From: Marinomonas vulgaris
Lineage (GTDB): Bacteria; Pseudomonadota; Gammaproteobacteria; Pseudomonadales; Marinomonadaceae
Length of the DNA stretch: 64,000 nucleotides
Direction of reading: 5' to 3'
NCBI RefSeq assembly: GCF_018145875.1
Contig: NZ_JAGSSV010000001.1
Location: 186,001-250,000 of the forward strand
Shown: positions 5,363 to 14,217 of the stretch, piece by piece
How the letters are laid out: each line of letters starts with the position of its first letter
Numbering within the stretch: the stretch's first letter is position 1
Position numbers and translations under genes: made by a program
The notes under the pieces: model-generated
What the model saw: the letters and a program-made list of their open reading frames with translations, nothing else
Databases searched by the model: none
What the model was told of the DNA's origin: nothing

Positions 5363-6106
5363 CTACCCTGCTCCTAAGCTAGAAAGTAGGCTGTTCTCGA
5401 CCAAGATTCCCGCTCCTATGCGGTTTATGTCTTCCCAAAGCGCTTCAGTGATATCGATGCCTTGATTGACACTCTGGGTTTTGTTTTCTTCTACTTGGCG
5501 CGCTGAAATATGATAAGCCTTTCGATTACCATAGGAATTTTGCAAAGACGAGGTCAGATCAACACGAGAACTGCAGACGATCGTCAGGGACTGAAGATCG
5601 TCCCCATCGGTATGCAAATTAGTCAACGCTTGGCTATAACTCGGATATCTGGCATTCGCTTTAATCGCCGCGGTATGTTCAGTGACAGACGAGCCTTGGT
5701 TTTTCCAGTACGCCACTACACTGATGCCACGACGTCCACAATCCGTTAAGGCCTTCAAAATGAACTTTCTATTATGACAATTGTGAACCGTGATGGTCGC
5801 GATGCCGGTTTCCAACGCTTTTGCATGGGCAAGATCCACCGCGGCGGCAATGCAATTGAGTGCGCTGCGTCCATGACTATTAATCACCGCAGAGGTTTTG
5901 TCCTCATAAATAACCGTACTCAGAGGCTTGTCGGAGTCTATTTTGATGTATGGCAAGGCATTCAGAAGCTCTTGTAACCCATCTAAACCATGTTTTTCTA
6001 GCCACAAAACCATGTTGCTTGCGTCTTCATAGTTTCCCACAAAATATTCAGAAGCCTGAAAGCAGCGCTGCAGAGCACTTTTTAACTCATTCATTGATAT
6101 GTGCAC
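5363..6106 (-). CDS. DUF3726-like protein of unknown function
   Basis: 247 residues, soluble, no signal peptide. The N-terminus (MNELKSALQRCFQA, then ASNMVLWLEKHGLDGLQELL) resembles proteins annotated DUF3726. As I recall, these tend to lie beside Ldh-family oxidoreductases and imino-acid catabolic genes. I assign the family from memory of this N-terminal pattern only, and no function is known. The likely start is GTG at 6106, because AGGAG lies 7 bases upstream and overlaps the stop codon of the preceding gene. ATG at 6094 is the alternative. The gap to the upstream 569-residue gene is only 10 bases, so the two are surely co-transcribed. Confidence 0.6.
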   Translation of the reverse strand: MHISMNELKSALQRCFQASEYFVGNYEDASNMVLWLEKHGLDGLQELLNALPYIKIDSDKPLSTVIYEDKTSAVINSHGRSALNCIAAAVDLAHAKALETGIATITVHNCHNRKFILKALTDCGRRGISVVAYWKNQGSSVTEHTAAIKANARYPSYSQALTNLHTDGDDLQSLTIVCSSRVDLTSSLQNSYGNRKAYHISARQVEENKTQSVNQGIDITEALWEDINRIGAGILVENSLLSSLGAG

Positions 6107-6116
6107 GAAACGTCTC

Positions 6117-7826
6117 CTATTGTTTTGGTGCCAAAGGCATAAACCAATCATCATTAAATGTACCGCCGATATCCTCTAGTAAAGGGGCACCCTGATACAT
6201 GGTGTTTCGAACCCACAACTTCGACCGCGGATCAAATTTACTGACACCAAAAAACGCCAGTTTTGCTCTCAATAAATGCATAGGTAAGACATTTCGGTCT
6301 AAAAGATTGCCCTGAATGTCTCCGTACATGCAACGATTCATGCTTTGAATGCGTCTTACGATGCCTCGCAATTTAGGCGCGGCGACCATGAATCTGGCCG
6401 TTGTGTGTTCGGGGTTTTCCGCCACATAGGCACACAGTTGGTCGTAACATTTACGCACCGCGTAACCGACCCCTAACGCCATCTGCTTACTTTTACCCTG
6501 CTCTTTTTCAGCATTGCCTAGTCTCGGTTCCATTTTGTCTTCGGAGCGATACCAAAAGGTTTCTTTTGCACCTTCTTTGGTAAAATCTATATCCAATGCC
6601 CAACGATAACTCTGCTCGATCACTTCTTTTAAGGTTTGCACCGGCATCACAGGGTCAAGGTCTAAAAACTCTTCTTCGCAATGATGGTCTTCCAAGTCGT
6701 CTACTAACTCTGGATAAAGCTCTAGCAAAATCGATACGAGCAACTCTTGTGTTTGCAAAGAGCAATGCGCTTCTGACCAAGACATAAGCGAATCCCAACT
6801 ACTTACCTGCTGATGCTCGCTGCTTTGAAGTGCACTGAGCTCTTTTACCACTTGCAGATTATTTTGCGTTTGCCATTCGTCCTCGGTTTTGGTTTCTTGC
6901 GTGTGCTGAATACAGCGCGACAGGAGTTCTTCAAAATGACGTTGCACTCGGTGATCGATATAGCCCAAGGTTCTGACTCTTGCCAGCCCAAGTTCTCGCA
7001 TGGTGATCCACTGATTAATTAACACAGGATGGTTCACTAAATAGGGCGCCATCCCTAAGCCTGTTGAATTACCAATACCAAAATAGCGCTTAATATTTAC
7101 ATCCATAGGCGTAAAGGTTGTGGCAGATTTATGCTGGGCGATATGCTCGGCTTGAAAGAGGCTGAAGTTGCGTATCATGAAACACACAAACATTTCCGCA
7201 GAAAAGGGTCGTTCGAAATCTGGCCAGTTATGTTTCACTTTTTCCCAATCGGCCATACCCAGTTTGCCGCTACCATACACAGCCGTGGTGCGATACAAGT
7301 AGCCAATATCGGTGATTTTCTCTATGTCAGGCTGCTTTCCAGATGCAAGTTGATCGACAACGTAATCAAAATTTCTGGCACTGCGATTGGCGCGGGATAA
7401 TACAAATACTCGAGAGTCGACCCTACCCGCTTCTTGTTTTGGCACGTTCTGGCGCAGTCGCTCAAGATAAACAGAATCCACCTCGCCTTCTACCAAGGCC
7501 ATGGTTAAATCCCATTTTGTCGCGATAACACGATCGTTTCTTTCATCACTGGATAAGTAATTGGAAAAAATCACGAAGCTAAACACACCATGGGACGCTT
7601 TGATCCTATACACAAAGGTACCGTACCCCTCATGATCAAGATCAACGAGACTTGCGCTTATTTGCCAGCGCTCTCGCATTATGCGTCGCACAAGAATACG
7701 CATAAAACTCAAGCGACTTTGGTGCATCGAGCCCAATCGCTCCAGATTCATTACCAAATCAGGGCTTCGAAGCGGTAACGCATTACTCCCCCTAAGCGCT
7801 GCTCGGATCGTTGCAGAGGTTGTCAT
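6117..7826 (-). CDS. Conserved-looking protein of unknown function, 569 residues
   Basis: I do not recognise this protein. It has no signal peptide or membrane helix, so it is probably cytoplasmic. It is rich in charged and aromatic residues. There is a basic N-terminal part (RILVRRIMRERW), a glycine-containing stretch near the middle (KRYFGIGNSTGLGMAPYLVN, about residues 245-264), and an acidic segment (ELVDDLEDHHCEEEFLDLD, about 375-393). No ATP, SAM or FAD motif is obvious to me. The ATG at 7826 has AAGGA 8 bases upstream. It is first of a two-gene operon with the DUF3726-like gene and sits beside the LysR-ALDH-M19-BCCT-Ldh cluster, so a role in that pathway is inferred from position only. 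Confidence 0.75.
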   Translation of the reverse strand: MTTSATIRAALRGSNALPLRSPDLVMNLERLGSMHQSRLSFMRILVRRIMRERWQISASLVDLDHEGYGTFVYRIKASHGVFSFVIFSNYLSSDERNDRVIATKWDLTMALVEGEVDSVYLERLRQNVPKQEAGRVDSRVFVLSRANRSARNFDYVVDQLASGKQPDIEKITDIGYLYRTTAVYGSGKLGMADWEKVKHNWPDFERPFSAEMFVCFMIRNFSLFQAEHIAQHKSATTFTPMDVNIKRYFGIGNSTGLGMAPYLVNHPVLINQWITMRELGLARVRTLGYIDHRVQRHFEELLSRCIQHTQETKTEDEWQTQNNLQVVKELSALQSSEHQQVSSWDSLMSWSEAHCSLQTQELLVSILLELYPELVDDLEDHHCEEEFLDLDPVMPVQTLKEVIEQSYRWALDIDFTKEGAKETFWYRSEDKMEPRLGNAEKEQGKSKQMALGVGYAVRKCYDQLCAYVAENPEHTTARFMVAAPKLRGIVRRIQSMNRCMYGDIQGNLLDRNVLPMHLLRAKLAFFGVSKFDPRSKLWVRNTMYQGAPLLEDIGGTFNDDWFMPLAPKQ

Positions 7827-8012: not shown

Positions 8013-8909
8013 TTATAAGGTGCCCATTTTTTCGATGGTAAAATCCAGAAAGGCCTGTGCTGGAGGGGTTAACGATTTGTTTTTTAAAAGCACTATACCA
8101 AGACGACGCACCACTTGAGGCTCGGCAAGGGGAATGAAGCGCAATGTGGTGCTGTCTTGAGGAAAAGCGTACCAGGGCAAGGTCGTAATACCCAACCCTG
8201 CTTCGATCATGGCAATCAGAGAAATCATGTTGGACACATAAAATTGCGACAATCCCAATAAGGCGCTCGCATCGCTGTCTTCCAGCAATCGAGACGTCCC
8301 ATTATTAATCAACCTATGGGATGTTAACTCTTCCCAGCACAAGGATGATTTCTGTGCTAACGGATGATCGATTGGACAAACAACGCCGATCTGATCCTGC
8401 CAAATAGGAATAAAATCCTTATCGCTGTGCTCTTCTTGATGAAATAAGTGGGCAATACCAAAGTCCACTTTTTGAGTCTCTACCATTTTCAGCACAGCTT
8501 CTGAATTATCATCAAAAAAGCTCACATGCAGGTCCGGTGTATGGGTAATAAATTCTTCAAGCAATTCGGGTAACACGCGACTGGCAATAGACGGAACCGA
8601 AGCAATTCGTAGGTGGCCGGCTTTGTGTTCAGACAACAACCTCATGTCTTCAGCGACCCTATCATGATGCTTAATAAGCTCTTTGGCTTTGGGTAAAAAA
8701 TACAAACCAAATGGCGTCAGCTCTGCTTTGGCCGTTTTCACATTACGTTTCTCAAACAAGCTTTCACCTAACTTGGTTTCTAAATCCCTAATGGAAAGAG
8801 ATATGGCAGGCTGAGTACGATGGGCTTTTTCCGCCGCCGCATGAAAGCCTTTCAACTCAGTAACCCACACAAAGTGGCGCAATTGAGTAATTTTTAAGTC
8901 TGGAAACAT
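8013..8909 (-). CDS. LysR-family transcriptional regulator
   Basis: 298 residues, the usual LysR length. The N-terminal winged helix-turn-helix (about 5-64) includes FHAAAEKAHRTQPAISLSIRDLETKLGESLF. The rest is a periplasmic-binding-like effector domain (about 90-295). It is divergent from the aldehyde dehydrogenase gene across a 93-base gap, the classic layout for a LysR protein that controls both itself and the neighbouring operon. The inducer is probably a substrate or intermediate of the pathway encoded at 9003-14217. No strong Shine-Dalgarno is visible before its ATG. Confidence 0.92.
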   Translation of the reverse strand: MFPDLKITQLRHFVWVTELKGFHAAAEKAHRTQPAISLSIRDLETKLGESLFEKRNVKTAKAELTPFGLYFLPKAKELIKHHDRVAEDMRLLSEHKAGHLRIASVPSIASRVLPELLEEFITHTPDLHVSFFDDNSEAVLKMVETQKVDFGIAHLFHQEEHSDKDFIPIWQDQIGVVCPIDHPLAQKSSLCWEELTSHRLINNGTSRLLEDSDASALLGLSQFYVSNMISLIAMIEAGLGITTLPWYAFPQDSTTLRFIPLAEPQVVRRLGIVLLKNKSLTPPAQAFLDFTIEKMGTL

Positions 8910-9002
8910 AATAAGAAACTCTTATCGGTTAATATTATTAATTAATTTTTGTTATGTAAAAATACCCCCTATTATTAATTCAACTTAACTTTGGAGGTCA
9001 AT
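8910..9002. promoter_or_regulatory. Divergent LysR / aldehyde dehydrogenase control region
   Basis: This 93-base AT-rich gap contains two direct copies of ATTATTAATT (8934-8943 and 8971-8980, 37 bases apart) and the palindrome TTAATTAA. A strong ribosome binding site GGAGG (8993-8997) precedes the ATG at 9003. The repeats are candidate LysR contacts. Confidence 0.45.
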
Positions 9003-10448
9003 ATGTCTGGTTCAATTTTTTGCAATTTCATCGCTGGTGAATGGGTAGAAGGAAACAAAGGCGCTGTGAACAACATCAGCCCAGCTGACAGCAAGGATAT
9101 CATTGGGCTTTATGCACAAGCAGACCAAGCGCAAACCGAAGCGGCTATCAGCGCCGCCAAAGCGGGCCAGCTGGAATGGCAAAAAAGTGGTTTAGAACAG
9201 CGCTACTCTGTTCTTATGGCCATTGGCGATGAACTGATTGCCCGTAAAGATGAATTGGGTGAACTCCTAGCCAGAGAAGAAGGGAAAACCTTGGCTGAAG
9301 GTGTGGGCGAAACCTATCGCTCCGGCCAATTTTTCCACTATTACGCAGCCGAAGTGCTACGACAAATGGGAGAAACCGCCGATTCCGTTCGACCTGGTGT
9401 TGACATCGAAACCCGCAGAGAGCCCGTTGGCGTGGTTGGCATTATCACCCCCTGGAACTTCCCAACGGCCACAGGCGCGTGGAAAATCGCCCCCGCTTTG
9501 GCCTTTGGTAATGCCATTGTGTGGAAGCCAGCAAACCAAGTGCCGGCTTCAGCATGGGCATTAACAGAAATCATTTCCCGTCAAAACCTCCCTGCTGGCA
9601 CCTTTAATCTGGTGATGGGTCCAGGCGCTGAAGTGGGCGATACCATGATTCACTCAAAAGGCATAAATGCGCTTACCTTTACCGGCTCCCTAGAAACCGG
9701 TCGCAAGGTCGCTGCTGCAACCGCAATGAACTTGGTGAAATGCCAACTTGAAATGGGCAGCAAAAATGCCTTGGTGGTGCTGGATGACGCGGATTTAGAC
9801 AATGCTGTTGAGTGTGCCGTTGGCGGCGCTTTTGGTGGCACAGGCCAAAAATGCACCGCGTCTTCTCGTTTAATCGTTACAGAAGGCATTCATGATCGTT
9901 TCGTTGACGCCATGATTGAACGCATGAAAAAGCTTGTTGTTGGCCATCCTCTTAAAGCAGGCGTTCACATTGGTGCCGTAGCAGATGCTCGCCAGATGGA
10001 GCAAAACCTAGCCTACCTAGCGTTAGCGAAAAAAGAAGGTGGCACCCTAGCCTACGGCGGCGACACACTTAAAGAAGATACCGATGGCTTTTTTATGCAG
10101 CCGGCGTTGTTCACCAACACCACCAATCAGATGACCATTAACCGCGAAGAAGCCTTTGCTCCTATTGCTTGTGTCATCAAGGTGAAAGATTACCAAGAAG
10201 CATTAGACACCCTCAATGATACCAACTTTGGTTTAACCGGTGGCATCTGCACTACCTCATTGCATTATGCAACTGACTTCAAGCGCAACGCAAAAACAGG
10301 TTGTGTCATGATCAACTTACCAACGGCCGGCACCGACTACCATGTTCCCTTTGGTGGCCGCAAAGACTCAAGCTTTGGTCCTCGTGAACAGGGCACTTAC
10401 GCCAAAGAATTCTACACCATCGTTAAAACGACCTATATTCGCGCATAA
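9003..10448 (+). CDS. NAD(P)-dependent aldehyde dehydrogenase, 2-oxoglutarate-semialdehyde type
   Basis: 481 residues of the ALDH superfamily. Catalytic residues are visible: Asn152 (TPWNFP), Lys175 (VWKPAN), Glu250 (LEMGSKN) and the nucleophile Cys284 (GTGQKCTASSRL). The LEMGSKNALVVLDDADLD and GAFGGTGQKCTASSR signatures are closest, to my recall, to 2-oxoglutarate-semialdehyde dehydrogenases of hydroxyproline, arabinose and glucarate breakdown. That specificity is an inference. The start ATG at 9003 has GGAGG 5 bases upstream; a TTG at 8991 in frame is less likely. It is first gene of a plus-strand run with the M19 homologue 12 bases downstream. Confidence 0.88.
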   Translation: MSGSIFCNFIAGEWVEGNKGAVNNISPADSKDIIGLYAQADQAQTEAAISAAKAGQLEWQKSGLEQRYSVLMAIGDELIARKDELGELLAREEGKTLAEGVGETYRSGQFFHYYAAEVLRQMGETADSVRPGVDIETRREPVGVVGIITPWNFPTATGAWKIAPALAFGNAIVWKPANQVPASAWALTEIISRQNLPAGTFNLVMGPGAEVGDTMIHSKGINALTFTGSLETGRKVAAATAMNLVKCQLEMGSKNALVVLDDADLDNAVECAVGGAFGGTGQKCTASSRLIVTEGIHDRFVDAMIERMKKLVVGHPLKAGVHIGAVADARQMEQNLAYLALAKKEGGTLAYGGDTLKEDTDGFFMQPALFTNTTNQMTINREEAFAPIACVIKVKDYQEALDTLNDTNFGLTGGICTTSLHYATDFKRNAKTGCVMINLPTAGTDYHVPFGGRKDSSFGPREQGTYAKEFYTIVKTTYIRA

Positions 10449-10460
10449 AGGAGCCGCATC

Positions 10461-11462
10461 ATGAATCATGCCTTTCATAACGACCTGATTGTGATCGATG
10501 GTTTACAGTATTCGAACTGGAGTAGAGAAATATTCAAACAGTTGCATGAAGGTGGCGTCACCATGGTTCATGCCACCATTGTTTATCATGAGAAAACACA
10601 AGAAACGCTTAAGCGCGTTGCAGAATGGAATCGTTTATTTGAAACCAATGCGGATCTTATTATGCCGATTCGTAGCACCGACGATATTCGCTTGGCAAAG
10701 CAATTAGGCAAGGTTGGCGTTATGTTCGGCGCGCAAAACTGCTCACCTATTGAAGACGATATCGGCATGATCGAAGTCATGCGTGAGCTCAATATGATGA
10801 TCATGCAGCTAACCTATAACAACCAAAGCCTGCTGGCATGCGGTTGTTATGAGGCAGAAGACAGCGGCGTTACTCGCTTTGGCAAACAAGCCATTCGTGA
10901 AATGAACCGCGTCGGCATGGTGATCGATATGAGCCACAGCGCAGAACGCAGTACGCTTGATGCCATAGAGATTTCTCAGCGCCCTATCGTTATCTCACAC
11001 GCCAACCCATTAAGTTTCCACCATGCGAAACGTAATAAATCCGATACCGTACTCAAGGCCCTGGGCGAATCTGGCGGTCTGTTAGGCTTCAGTCTTTACC
11101 CTTTTCATCTGAAAAATGGCCCAGATTGCACCTTGAATGATTTTTGCGACATGGTGGCCAGCACGGCGGATTTAATGGGCATCGATCACATCGGCATTGG
11201 TACAGACCTATGCCAAGAACAACCTGTCTCCGTACTTGAATGGATGCGTAATGGAAATTGGTCAAAAGAAATGGATTATGGCGAGGGATCAAAGTCCAAC
11301 GCAGACTGGCCAAAACCATTGAGTTGGTTCCGCGACAGTCGCGATTTTCCAAATATTACCAATGGGCTGCTTGATCGTGGTTTCAACAAAGATGAGGTCG
11401 CCAAAATCATGGGGCTAAATTGGTTGAACTTCCTCGATGATGCACTAAAGCCGATTCGCTAA
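10461..11462 (+). CDS. Peptidase M19 (renal dipeptidase) family homologue with altered metal site
   Basis: 333 residues, a TIM-barrel member of the M19 family, annotated by homology as membrane dipeptidase. It has no signal or lipoprotein sequence, so it should be cytoplasmic. Two zinc-ligand histidines are kept (His159 in DMSHS, His180 in ISHANP), as are the following Arg-Asn and Asp249 (GIGTD). However, the N-terminal HxD ligands of DGHxD are replaced (D-G-L-Q-Y, residues 13-17), and the bridging Glu is replaced by Gln92 (GAQN). A binuclear zinc dipeptidase is therefore doubtful, and it probably performs another hydrolytic or lyase reaction in this pathway. The start has AAAGGAG 7 bases upstream. 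Confidence 0.82.
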   Translation: MNHAFHNDLIVIDGLQYSNWSREIFKQLHEGGVTMVHATIVYHEKTQETLKRVAEWNRLFETNADLIMPIRSTDDIRLAKQLGKVGVMFGAQNCSPIEDDIGMIEVMRELNMMIMQLTYNNQSLLACGCYEAEDSGVTRFGKQAIREMNRVGMVIDMSHSAERSTLDAIEISQRPIVISHANPLSFHHAKRNKSDTVLKALGESGGLLGFSLYPFHLKNGPDCTLNDFCDMVASTADLMGIDHIGIGTDLCQEQPVSVLEWMRNGNWSKEMDYGEGSKSNADWPKPLSWFRDSRDFPNITNGLLDRGFNKDEVAKIMGLNWLNFLDDALKPIR

Positions 11463-11531: not shown

Positions 11532-13097
11532 ATGAAGAGTGCAAAAGAGGCAGATCTACCCAACAATGACGACCAAGCAAGCCGCACATCCGGCTTGCTT
11601 TATGGTGTCGACTTACCCGTTTTTTTCATCAGCGCAAGTGTCGTTTCCTTGTTTTGTATTGTCGCACTGTATGATATCAATCTGTTATCTACGTGGGTAA
11701 ACAGCGCTTTTGTCACCTCAACAAAGTACTTCGGAGCCTATTGGCAGGTATTGTTGTTACTGACCTTTGTGATTGGTTTATTTCTCAGCTTTGGTAGAAC
11801 CGGAAGAGTCGTTCTAGGTGGATTAAAAGCCCCTGAAATCTCTACCTTTCAGTGGATTTCTATCATCATGTGTACCCTGCTCGCCGGTGGCGGTGTGTTT
11901 TGGGCCGCAGCAGAACCAATGGCGCACTTCACGTCTCCTCCTCCGTTATTTGGCGGTGAAGCAGGAACCATAGACGCCGCCTACAATGCACTAGCGCAAA
12001 GCTTTATGCATTGGGGCTTCCTCGCTTGGGCTATTTTGGGCAGCCTGACTGGCATAGTGTATATGTATCTGCACTATGAAAAAGGCTTACCGCTAAAACC
12101 TCGTACACTTTTGTACCCTGTGTTTGGCAATCGCGTCATGACAGGGCCATTTGGTGCCATTGTCGATGCTTGCTGTGTTTTAGCCGTTGTGGCGGGAACC
12201 GTGGGGCCAATTGGCTTTCTGGGTTTACAGGTCAGTTTTGGCTTGGAAAAGCTGTTTGGTATTCAAAATGACTACTCAACTCAGCTGTTCATCTTGATTG
12301 CCCTGATTGTGATTTATACTCTTTCTGCGGTGTCTGGCGTGGCAAAAGGCATCCAGCTGATGAGTCGAATCAACGTCATTCTTGCGGTCGCACTTATGGC
12401 GTTTATTCTTTTATTTGGCCCAACCAGTTTTATTATTGATGGCTACATTCAAGGCTTTGGTCTTTATCTAGATAACTTCATTCCTATGGCTACCTTTCGT
12501 GGCGATCCAGGTTGGTTGAACTGGTGGACGGTGTTCTTCTGGGGTTGGTTCCTTGGCTACGGCCCTCTTATGGCGATGTTTGTCGCTCGTATTTCTCGTG
12601 GTCGTACCATTCGCGAAATGATTATATTGGTGTCCGTTGTTGCCCCCATCATTACCTGCTTTTGGTTCACGATTGTAGGCGGTAGTGGATTAGCCTTTGA
12701 ACTAGAAAACCCAGGCGTTATTTCCGAACCCTTTACCGGCTTTAACCTACCAGCGGCGCTATTGGCCATCACAGAACAGCTACCGATGGGCTTTTTAATC
12801 TCAGTGCTATTTCTAATCCTTACCACCATTTTTGTGGCAACCACAGGCGATTCCATGACCTATGCCGTGTCTATGGTGATGACAGGAACAGATCATCCCA
12901 AAAGTTCTATTCGTGTCTTCTGGGGCATTATTATGGGAGCAATGGCGGCCATTTTAATCTCGATTGGCTCTGGCGGCATTTCCGCTTTACAGTCTTTTAT
13001 CGTCATCACGGCCGTGCCGGTTTCTTTGGTCTTGTTACCTTCTTTATGGACAGCGCCACAAATAGCCAAAAAAATGGCCAACGACCAAGGTTTATAA
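11532..13097 (+). CDS. BCCT-family transporter
   Basis: 521 residues with about 12 membrane helices. The betaine/choline/carnitine transporter family imports zwitterionic or quaternary ammonium compounds. The signature FVARISRGRTIREM follows helix 8, and AAAEPMAHF matches the helix-3 region. The aromatic substrate box is altered. Where BetP-type carriers have a WAWWIAWAP-like run, this one has WGWFLGYGP, and the usual GMGIG glycine run is LAGGGVF. A substrate other than glycine betaine is suggested. It lies 69 bases after the M19 homologue with AGGAG at the right spacing, and gives the cluster its import step. Confidence 0.9.
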   Translation: MKSAKEADLPNNDDQASRTSGLLYGVDLPVFFISASVVSLFCIVALYDINLLSTWVNSAFVTSTKYFGAYWQVLLLLTFVIGLFLSFGRTGRVVLGGLKAPEISTFQWISIIMCTLLAGGGVFWAAAEPMAHFTSPPPLFGGEAGTIDAAYNALAQSFMHWGFLAWAILGSLTGIVYMYLHYEKGLPLKPRTLLYPVFGNRVMTGPFGAIVDACCVLAVVAGTVGPIGFLGLQVSFGLEKLFGIQNDYSTQLFILIALIVIYTLSAVSGVAKGIQLMSRINVILAVALMAFILLFGPTSFIIDGYIQGFGLYLDNFIPMATFRGDPGWLNWWTVFFWGWFLGYGPLMAMFVARISRGRTIREMIILVSVVAPIITCFWFTIVGGSGLAFELENPGVISEPFTGFNLPAALLAITEQLPMGFLISVLFLILTTIFVATTGDSMTYAVSMVMTGTDHPKSSIRVFWGIIMGAMAAILISIGSGGISALQSFIVITAVPVSLVLLPSLWTAPQIAKKMANDQGL

Positions 13098-13109: not shown

Positions 13110-13148
13110 ACCGTTAACATCAGCTTAGTACAGCGTGATGTTAACGGT
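13110..13148 (+). terminator. 13-bp inverted repeat after the BCCT gene
   Basis: ACCGTTAACATCA (13110-13122) and TGATGTTAACGGT (13136-13148) are perfect complements around a 13-base loop. A-rich sequence precedes the stem and TTT follows it, so it could terminate or attenuate transcription in either direction. Being 62 bases before the next start, it might instead be an operator or an mRNA-processing site. Confidence 0.35.
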
Positions 13149-13209
13149 TTGTAGAGTGAAACCCTGTATTTTCGGGCCATTTTTCCCACTTCAGACATTA
13201 GAGAAAACA

Positions 13210-14217
13210 ATGATTGATGAAAAAATACTTGTCTCATTAAAAGACATTGAACAAAACACAACGCAAGCTCTAATATCCCATGGCGCAGCCCCTTGGGTGG
13301 CAGCGGAGGTCGCAAAAGCGGTCAAACAAGCGGAAGCAGAAGGCAATCTTATATGCGGTCTGTTTTATTTAGACAGCTATTGCAAACAACTGGCGTCAGG
13401 CAGAGTGAAGGGTGCTGTTGATCCCATTGTCAGTCAGCCAAAAGGCTCAGCCGTTAAAGTCGATGCGCAACTGGGCTTCGCGCAAGCCGCTTTTGCTAAA
13501 GGCTTTGATAAGGCCGTTGAGTTGGCCAAATTAAACGGCACAGCGTCGTTGGCAATTTGTCATTCGCATACCTGCACGTCTATGGGCTATTTTACCGAGC
13601 AGATCGCAAAAGCCGGCTTGATCGGCATAGGTATGACCAACGCACCTGCTTGTGTGTCGCCTCCTGGCGCATCGAAAGCCGTGCTGGGCACCAACCCAAT
13701 TTCTATGGCGGTTCCATCAAAAGAAGGCGGTGTCGCGTTTAAATTTGATCAGTCAACCAGTGCGATTGCTATCGGCAAAATTCGTATTGCCGCAGCGGCA
13801 GGTGAAAAAATTCCTTTTGGTTGGGCTGTCGACAAAAACGGTGAACCGACTGACGACCCAGTCGCAGGGCTAGAAGGCTCGCTGGTTTCCGCTGGTGGCT
13901 ATAAGGGTTATGGATTTGGCTTAATGGCAGAAATACTGGCCGCGGCAGTGACTGGATCCAACAATAGCGTTGACGCGCCCGCACTTAAAACCACGGAAGG
14001 TGCGCCACACGACCTTGGTCAGTTTTATTTTTTACTCGACCCCACCCTGTATTCAGGTGATGCTTTTTGGGAAAGGTTAGAAACGTTACAACAAGCGGTA
14101 AACAGCCAAGAAAATGCTCGCCTACCAGGCTCACAGCCAAAAGAAGTCACAGAGGTTTTGATCAGCAAAACCTTATGGGATTCTGTTCTTAATAACCTGT
14201 GCCCAACGTCTACCTAG
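13210..14217 (+). CDS. Ldh-family (malate/L-lactate dehydrogenase type) NAD(P)H oxidoreductase
   Basis: 335 residues of the family that includes delta1-piperideine-2-carboxylate / delta1-pyrroline-2-carboxylate reductases, ureidoglycolate dehydrogenase and sulfolactate dehydrogenase. Family marks are a His in CHSHTCTSMGYF, TNAPACVSPPG, LGTNPISMAVP, the DQSTSAIAIGKI segment and PFGWAVDKNGEPTDDP. The substrate cannot be read from sequence. The company of a BCCT carrier and a semialdehyde dehydrogenase favours a cyclic imino acid. The ATG at 13210 fits the family N-terminus. The Shine-Dalgarno is weak (AGAGAAAA), and a hairpin precedes it. Confidence 0.88.
   Translation: MIDEKILVSLKDIEQNTTQALISHGAAPWVAAEVAKAVKQAEAEGNLICGLFYLDSYCKQLASGRVKGAVDPIVSQPKGSAVKVDAQLGFAQAAFAKGFDKAVELAKLNGTASLAICHSHTCTSMGYFTEQIAKAGLIGIGMTNAPACVSPPGASKAVLGTNPISMAVPSKEGGVAFKFDQSTSAIAIGKIRIAAAAGEKIPFGWAVDKNGEPTDDPVAGLEGSLVSAGGYKGYGFGLMAEILAAAVTGSNNSVDAPALKTTEGAPHDLGQFYFLLDPTLYSGDAFWERLETLQQAVNSQENARLPGSQPKEVTEVLISKTLWDSVLNNLCPTST

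Follow-up and report, generated by a model that had tools for sequence, protein, structure and literature searches.

A Peptidase_M19-family protein with an altered metal site in a probable homarine catabolic operon of Marinomonas vulgaris

Genes at the locus

The window, that is, the whole stretch of 64,000 nucleotides of Marinomonas vulgaris DNA that was analysed, carries the gene of an M19-like protein, which lies among the genes of a LysR-type regulator, an aldehyde dehydrogenase (ALDH), a BCCT-family transporter, an Ldh_2-family reductase, a DUF3726 protein and a protein designated H569 (Table 1). The match of the ALDH to the alpha-ketoglutaric semialdehyde dehydrogenase profile of NCBIfam reached 481 bits, below the cut-off of 770. 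The start codon listed for the Ldh_2 gene may lie upstream of the true start. H569 was found to match no profile of Pfam or NCBIfam, and its model (pLDDT 86.6) gave no convincing whole-chain fold match in the PDB, the best Foldseek E being 0.11 and the best VIA Z 4.3. It is a candidate new ring-opening enzyme; no oxygenase was recognised in the cluster. DUF3726 weakly matches the N-terminal part of Ldh_2 (26.3 bits, below the cut-off), and this resemblance suggests that it may have a reductase-like origin. A search of the open-licence literature for DUF3726 found nothing.

Table 1. Positions in the window of the operon genes and of the active-site codons of the M19-like protein.
Feature	Coordinates	Strand	Evidence
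DUF3726 protein	5363..6154	-	PF12525 68.5 bits; overlaps H569 end by 38 bases as listed
H569, 569-aa protein without family match, core cluster member	6117..7826	-	pLDDT 86.6; co-occurrence
LysR-type regulator, divergent	8013..8909	-	Pfam HTH_1 + LysR_substrate; 27/28 neighbourhoods
Aldehyde dehydrogenase	8991..10448	+	NCBIfam best match alpha-ketoglutaric semialdehyde dehydrogenase; 28/28 neighbourhoods
M19-like amidohydrolase, window-type ('LQY') clade	10461..11462	+	333 aa; PF01244 275.3 bits, model pLDDT 90.1, fold match
Leu-Gln-Tyr (codons 15-17) replacing His-x-Asp metal ligands	10503..10511	+	Alignments, census
Gln (codon 92) replacing bridging Glu	10734..10736	+	GliJ profile alignment, census
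Tyr (codon 119) replacing LTHN-motif His	10815..10817	+	Grouped and GliJ alignments
Cys-Tyr-Glu, codons 129-131	10845..10853	+	Grouped alignment, conservation count
His metal ligand kept, codon 159	10935..10937	+	GliJ alignment, census
His metal ligand kept, codon 180	10998..11000	+	GliJ alignment, census
Catalytic Asp kept, codon 249	11205..11207	+	GliJ alignment, census
BCCT-family betaine/carnitine/choline transporter	11532..13097	+	PF02028 516 bits
Ldh_2-family reductase, at RidA place of nearest relatives	13135..14217	+	PF02615 267 bits

Family, fold and active site of the M19-like protein

The sole Pfam family in the M19-like open reading frame (ORF) is Peptidase_M19 (PF01244), which scores 275.3 bits (cut-off 26); NCBIfam gave no match. 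An AlphaFold2 model based on an alignment of 26 rows reached a pLDDT of 90.1. The nearest solved protein is 2I5G, an 'amidohydrolase' of Pseudomonas aeruginosa (246 bits), on which the model superposes with Z 48.1 and an rmsd of 1.7 Å over 323 residues at 36% identity; the fold also matches that of GliJ (5LWZ, Z up to 39.1) and of human DPEP1 (1ITQ, Z 38.8, 1.9 Å, 302 residues). Taken together, the Pfam score, the model and these fold matches describe a full-length M19 barrel. The M19-like protein has in common with DPEP1 and GliJ the fold (Z 38.8-39.1), the two His, the catalytic Asp and an Arg at position 191, but the HxD motif, the bridging Glu and the His of the LTHN motif are replaced in it.

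An earlier, sequence-only reading of this DNA had given the gene, which encodes 333 aa, its correct position and frame and the correct residues D13-G14-L15-Q16-Y17, Q92, H159, H180 and D249, and the superposition on DPEP1 that it had proposed as a check yielded a dipeptidase-type barrel over the whole length (Z 38.8). Its claim that HxD and the bridging Glu are lost agrees with the profile alignment, in which the Glu of GliJ (G-I-E-G) falls on Q92, and so does its claim that His159, His180 and Asp249 remain, as the two His and the Asp of GliJ fall on these residues. Alignment with 20 further M19 sequences from the order showed D-x-H-x-D in the motif-keeping proteins where the M19-like protein has D-G-L-Q-Y; the HxD motif is also absent in 7 of these 20. 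The three losses on the earlier list of ligands stand, but a fourth change in the active site, from the His of the LTHN motif to Tyr119, had been overlooked. The column of Tyr119 is His in 72% of the 72 members with HxD and Glu, is part of LTHN in the GliJ alignment and corresponds, as we assume, to His152 of DPEP1. The full binuclear dipeptidase set of HxD, Glu, His, His and Asp is thus not found: L-Q-Y and Gln92 are present, while His159, His180 and Asp249 are kept. That the binuclear site cannot take its usual form had been concluded before and still holds. As the gene also lies among metabolic enzyme genes and a transporter gene in what looks like a catabolic operon, a repurposed reaction, which the earlier reading had called plausible, is the best reading.

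Two further residues set this type of site apart. Cys129 is present in 97% and Glu131 in 100% of 39 proteins of the LQY type, both are present in all 11 proteins of the LII type, and neither occurs in any of the 72 HxD/Glu members; judged from the alignment, they are candidates for a replacement third ligand or for acid-base catalysis. R191 is present across all five groups compared and is presumably equivalent to Arg230, which binds the substrate in DPEP1.

Conservation of the altered site was followed in 86 window-type proteins, made up of the query, the best 80 among the matches listed on named contigs and five from small genomes. In this sample (best 80 among the matches listed, five and the query), all 86 proteins share Q92, C129, E131, H159, H180, R191, D249 and C251, and 85 of the 86 share L15 and Y17. 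Two peptide patterns were used to find the 80, one of which contains Y119, so the 86 of 86 also counted for Y119 in this sample partly reflects the search; Y119 is invariant as well in 29 window-type proteins found independently of that pattern. The dN/dS against one relative is approximately 0.04, at a dS of 2.4, which approaches saturation; two further pairs had reached it. Because the altered site is conserved and dN/dS is low, the M19-like protein is best regarded as a working enzyme. Conservation of the altered site and dN/dS rule out chance, sequencing error or decay as its origin.

Distribution of the altered site in the M19 family

The census comprised 110 of 122 M19 places, aligned from 249 genomes of the phylum. 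The 12 rows that were omitted are window-type or PA5396-type proteins of the own order, some of them already part of another alignment, and would merely have enlarged the Gln class. HxD and Glu were found together in 62 of the 110 proteins, His without Asp but with Glu kept in eight, and neither His nor Asp, with Gln in the place of Glu, in 37; one protein, cut short by an internal stop, was omitted from the tree. Two census proteins (L211 and L214) have another pattern, in which the His of HxD is kept, Glu is changed to Leu and the first metal His to Gln, possibly a PvdM-like arrangement as we assume. The 20 further M19 proteins of the order comprise 10 with HxD and Glu, three with His only and Glu, and seven of the Gln class.

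Among the 110 census and 20 order sequences, there was none with the His of HxD together with Gln92, and none with this His lost and Glu kept. The loss of the HxD His and the change from Glu to Gln are therefore always paired, which points to a coupled loss that defines a large subclass. The earlier reading had implied that the loss was singular, and in this it erred: the same state is met in 37 of the 110 proteins across the phylum, and 2I5G has both motif changes. As the alignments have it, the altered site characterises a large subclass, for which the structure of one relative has been solved. A unique event in the Marinomonas lineage was considered as well and is ruled out by the census (37 of 110).

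When the ligand columns were removed before tree building, the 39 LQY proteins formed one clade (support 1.0), whose sister is a clade of 11 LII-type proteins (1.0), with a joint support of 0.993. The M19-like protein falls within its own clade of 39 and outside the LII (PA5396/2I5G) clade. The best split gathers 63 of the 70 Gln-class leaves with a support of only 0.652; the remaining seven are placed elsewhere, close to the 'Hx plus Glu' group. None of the 70 Gln-class census proteins has lost either His ligand, the Asp or R191. 2I5G and its LII relatives have the same motif losses (D-G-L-I-I and G-F-Q-N) with His, His and Asp kept; the LII type differs from the M19-like protein in forming a separate clade, 2I5G itself being outside the tree sample, and in its dgcAB context. 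We take 2I5G to be of the PA5396 type, with its gene beside dgcAB.

The own genome has a second M19-like gene on contig C55 (L001), which belongs to the LII group, is also without HxD and Glu, and is followed with a short overlap by an ORF of 186 residues. In Vibrio natriegens and P. aeruginosa, a gene predicted to encode a dipeptidase stands ahead of dgcAB, according to the part of the source available (PMC12093977), and the L001 pair may correspond to this pair of dipeptidase and hypothetical protein genes. Among the matches listed from the open-licence literature, no function was found for the dgcAB-linked dipeptidase gene and no description of the coupled-loss subclass. The same literature gave no match for PA5396 together with dipeptidase, and for a mononuclear M19 site it returned two papers, both on other amidohydrolases; 2I5G was mentioned in none of the papers listed for it. 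Genes of the Gln subclass carry the name 'membrane dipeptidase' in public records.

Conservation of the operon

Gene order was compared in 28 neighbourhoods, consisting of the window, 20 of the 26 other genomes of the order with a whole window-type gene, and seven plasmid records. A conserved operon was found that comprises LysR, ALDH, the M19-like protein, a betaine transporter, H569, DUF3726 and either Ldh_2 or RidA, in which ALDH and H569 occur in 28 neighbourhoods, LysR and DUF3726 in 27 and BCCT in 23. The same core is present in annotated records of Pseudomonas, Ruegeria, Aminobacter, Roseateles and Phaeobacter, with a BCCT or a glycine-betaine-type ABC transporter, and in Caballeronia and Vibrio records the operon genes were found by similarity search.

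Of 293 genomes from the order, 28 carry the M19-like gene, complete in 27 and as a fragment in one, and H569 was found in exactly these 28, a count that ignores kinship. Similarly, 385 alphaproteobacterial genomes include 50 with a window-type M19 (threshold at least 425 bits), 53 with H569 and 48 with both, kinship again being ignored; two of the 50 are without H569, and five of the 53 are without a clear window-type M19, one of which (G865) has a diverged adjacent copy. For the best 80 window-type loci among the matches listed, H569 lies within reach of 62, ALDH of 59 and DUF3726 of 58. The other 18 of these 80 have no detectable H569 nearby, some of them being contig ends, and in the seven of the 18 that were inspected the copies stand in other surroundings. 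Window-type ('DNLQY') M19 genes without the surrounding operon were observed at L119, L140, L147 and L149.

Small genomes contain reduced versions of the cluster. L318 and L320 are genomes of 1.20 and 1.32 Mb, each a single contig and 99% complete, in which, of the catabolic genes searched, the M19-like gene, H569 and DUF3726 alone form a local cluster, and no ALDH was found near this trio. L318 has a match to the alpha subunit of the N-methylglutamate dehydrogenase (Mgd)/sarcosine oxidase type upstream, at the edge of the stretch, and L320 has a distant ABC-ATPase match. The remaining small-genome loci have ALDH, Ldh_2 and an ABC transporter (L319), Mgd-type genes (L321), or an ABC transporter with DUF3726 not detected (L322).

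RidA and Ldh_2 exclude one another: RidA only is found in 16 of the 28 neighbourhoods, Ldh_2 only in nine, neither in three and both in none (p 3e-5, ignoring kinship). The Ldh_2 gene of the window directly follows the transporter gene, and RidA occupies this place in seven near relatives (L068-L074); three of the nine Ldh_2 genes (L084-L086) sit elsewhere in the cluster, and for two of these the identity to the query is no more than 36-37%. Such exclusion and exchange are as expected if both proteins act on one imine.

Probable assignment to homarine catabolism

The homarine operon is reportedly named homABCDER in the 2026 work of Ferrer-Gonzalez et al., with N-methylglutamate and glutamate as products, and it is also said to occur in SAR11. 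We assume that homABCDER stands for five enzyme genes and a regulator, which would match the gene number of the operon described here. Compared by description, the two are also alike in their presence in Ruegeria pomeroyi and, if the four-subunit genes near the cluster encode Mgd, in a link to that enzyme.

Mgd takes part in homarine catabolism, as stated in the available part of one paper (PMC13390433, citing Ferrer-Gonzalez et al., 2026), and R. pomeroyi, its strain not noted, removes homarine within hours, as given in an excerpt of another (PMC12817926). R. pomeroyi SZCCDBG043 (L102) was found to have LysR, ALDH, M19, H569, DUF3726, Ldh_2 and a BCCT of 29% identity. The megaplasmid of R. 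pomeroyi DSS-3 is absent from the records that match H569, the one Ruegeria record there being that of TM1040.

In 6 of 27 neighbourhoods, counted by matches to at least the alpha and beta subunits, the cluster has genes of the four-subunit sarcosine-oxidase/N-methylglutamate-dehydrogenase type nearby, and genes of the Mgd/sarcosine-oxidase type, the two not being distinguished, lie near it in two of five small genomes. An alpha-subunit match was found near 10 of the 80 loci (best 80 among the matches listed), two at 26% identity and two (L137 and L149) at loci without H569. Public records name the neighbouring four-subunit genes sarcosine oxidase, from which Mgd was not told apart by sequence here. 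Two alpha-subunit matches of nearly full length are present in the own genome; one of them belongs to a set that adjoins purU, folD and an ammonium-transporter-like ORF, as well as an ORF resembling the glutamate-synthase-like subunit of N-methylglutamate synthase, all named by eye. The links to Mgd-type genes, combined with the reported role of Mgd in homarine catabolism, point to the homarine pathway, and the operon is likely a homarine (N-methylpicolinate) catabolic operon, which has probably already been published.

Proposed reaction and alternatives

The reading that we favour, with a probability of roughly 0.4, is that the M19-like protein is a single-metal (beta-site) amidohydrolase derived from M19 dipeptidases, which would deformylate an N-formyl-N-methyl enamine in homarine catabolism. 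More generally, cleavage of a carbon-nitrogen bond, and not the digestion of peptides, is its most likely activity. The carbon skeleton of homarine consists of five ring carbons and a carboxyl; the carboxyl and the alpha carbon that bears both it and the nitrogen are retained in N-methylglutamate. As N-methylglutamate is one carbon shorter than homarine (three further carbons versus four), C6 must leave. H569 and DUF3726 would open the homarine ring between C5 and C6 to give an N-formyl-N-methyl enamine that carries an aldehyde at C5, and ALDH would oxidise this aldehyde, C5 oxidation being suited to a semialdehyde-type ALDH. The M19-like protein would hydrolyse the N-formyl bond of 2-(N-methylformamido)pent-2-enedioate to formate and the enamine/imine of 2-oxoglutarate, and Ldh_2 would reduce the imine to N-methylglutamate. 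In relatives, RidA replaces Ldh_2 and would hydrolyse the imine to 2-oxoglutarate and methylamine.

In the trigonelline pathway (tgn) of Acinetobacter, a pyridinium ring is likewise cleaved between C5 and C6 to an N-methylformamide whose aldehyde is oxidised before hydrolysis; the chemistry proposed here is analogous, but no tgn-type oxygenase was recognised in the cluster. The open-licence literature searched yielded nothing useful on trigonelline. Formyl removal would be an amide hydrolysis beside an alpha-carboxylate, on a dehydroamino acid, and DPEP1 itself is a dehydropeptidase. The loss of residues around the amino end of the dipeptide, with the Arg kept, would fit an acyl group as small as formyl.

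The beta site of the M19-like protein would be formed by the two His and the catalytic Asp that are kept, the HxD motif of the alpha site, the bridging Glu and the LTHN-motif His being replaced. Presence of the beta-site His/His and Asp together with absence of the alpha-site motif is also the state of E. coli NagA, presented in the accessible text as a beta-mononuclear N-deacylase in which QxN replaces HxH (PMC6016474). OngB and D-aminoacylases are further beta-mononuclear N-deacylases in the portion of a second source that was available (PMC12017989). All of these have two His and Asp in common with the M19-like protein and belong to other families of the superfamily. In beta-mononuclear sites, the third ligand is given as Glu or Cys in the same portion (PMC12017989), whereas the M19-like protein has Gln in that place, with Cys129 and Glu131 as candidates by sequence; this counts against the single-metal reading, as does OngB, which keeps and needs HxH (PMC12017989). 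Mycobacterial NagA is also described, in the part at hand, as requiring both metals (PMC6016474), so that an enzyme deprived of its alpha site may well be inactive. The absence of ALDH from the local trio of two small genomes counts against the proposed route as well, as do the lack of a recognised oxygenase for the ring opening, the window-type M19 genes without H569 and the H569 genomes without a clear window-type M19, and the three Ldh_2 genes that sit elsewhere in the cluster.

An unlikely though plausible alternative is that the M19-like protein is a homarine-pathway hydrolase of another bond, whose substrate, such as a lactam or a hydrated dihydropyridine, would be opened at its ring nitrogen. 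Many members of the amidohydrolase superfamily act on cyclic amides, and a local trio with H569 and DUF3726 but without ALDH in two small genomes would suit such an early step. However, cutting a lactam between N1 and C6 keeps C6 and leaves a chain of six carbons against the five of N-methylglutamate, and the semialdehyde-type ALDH would be left without a role.

It is likewise unlikely that the kept barrel houses a non-hydrolytic or metal-free pathway enzyme such as a tautomerase, isomerase or lyase. The loss of three ligands and of a further active-site His, and the weakness of Gln as a ligand, speak for it, and metal-independent amidohydrolases are a recognised subset in the text available of one source (PMC12017989). 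The retention of His/His, Asp and R191 in all 70 Gln-class census proteins and in 86 of 86 window-type proteins (best 80 among the matches listed, five and the query) instead suits a metal hydrolase.

That the operon degrades another N-methylated compound or several, for example another betaine, and not homarine, is improbable. In its favour, the transporters are annotated to family level only (BCCT or glycine-betaine-type ABC), and sarcosine oxidase is the annotation of the four-subunit genes nearby. Against this, the number of enzyme genes and the regulator match those that homABCDER reportedly has, and the cluster is present in R. pomeroyi and in genomes of 1.2-1.4 Mb, as is reported for the homarine operon. 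Mgd-type genes also lie near the cluster, and Mgd has a part in homarine catabolism in the passage cited above.

It is very improbable that the M19-like protein is a normal binuclear dipeptidase whose second site is restored by other side chains, such as Cys129 and Glu131. That these two residues are nearly always kept and occur in 0 of 72 HxD/Glu members speaks for it, but four active-site positions have changed together and the operon context is the catabolism of a small compound, not of peptides.

Implications for the M19 family

Homarine is a widespread algal osmolyte. The naming of such genes as 'membrane dipeptidase' hides a different active site and a probable step of homarine breakdown, and the coupled loss of the HxD His and Glu offers a simple rule for re-annotating part of the M19 family. 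For the deformylation reading, the exchange of Ldh_2 and RidA gives a testable prediction for the intermediate. A wider proposal, which we consider doubtful, is that approximately one-third of proteobacterial M19 proteins constitute a beta-mononuclear Gln/His/His/Asp class that acts on N-acyl dehydroamino acids or N-formyl-N-methyl amino acids in betaine and pyridinium catabolism, placed here behind a ring opener of new fold made up of H569 and DUF3726. If this were true, the class would inherit the dehydropeptidase chemistry of the M19 family.
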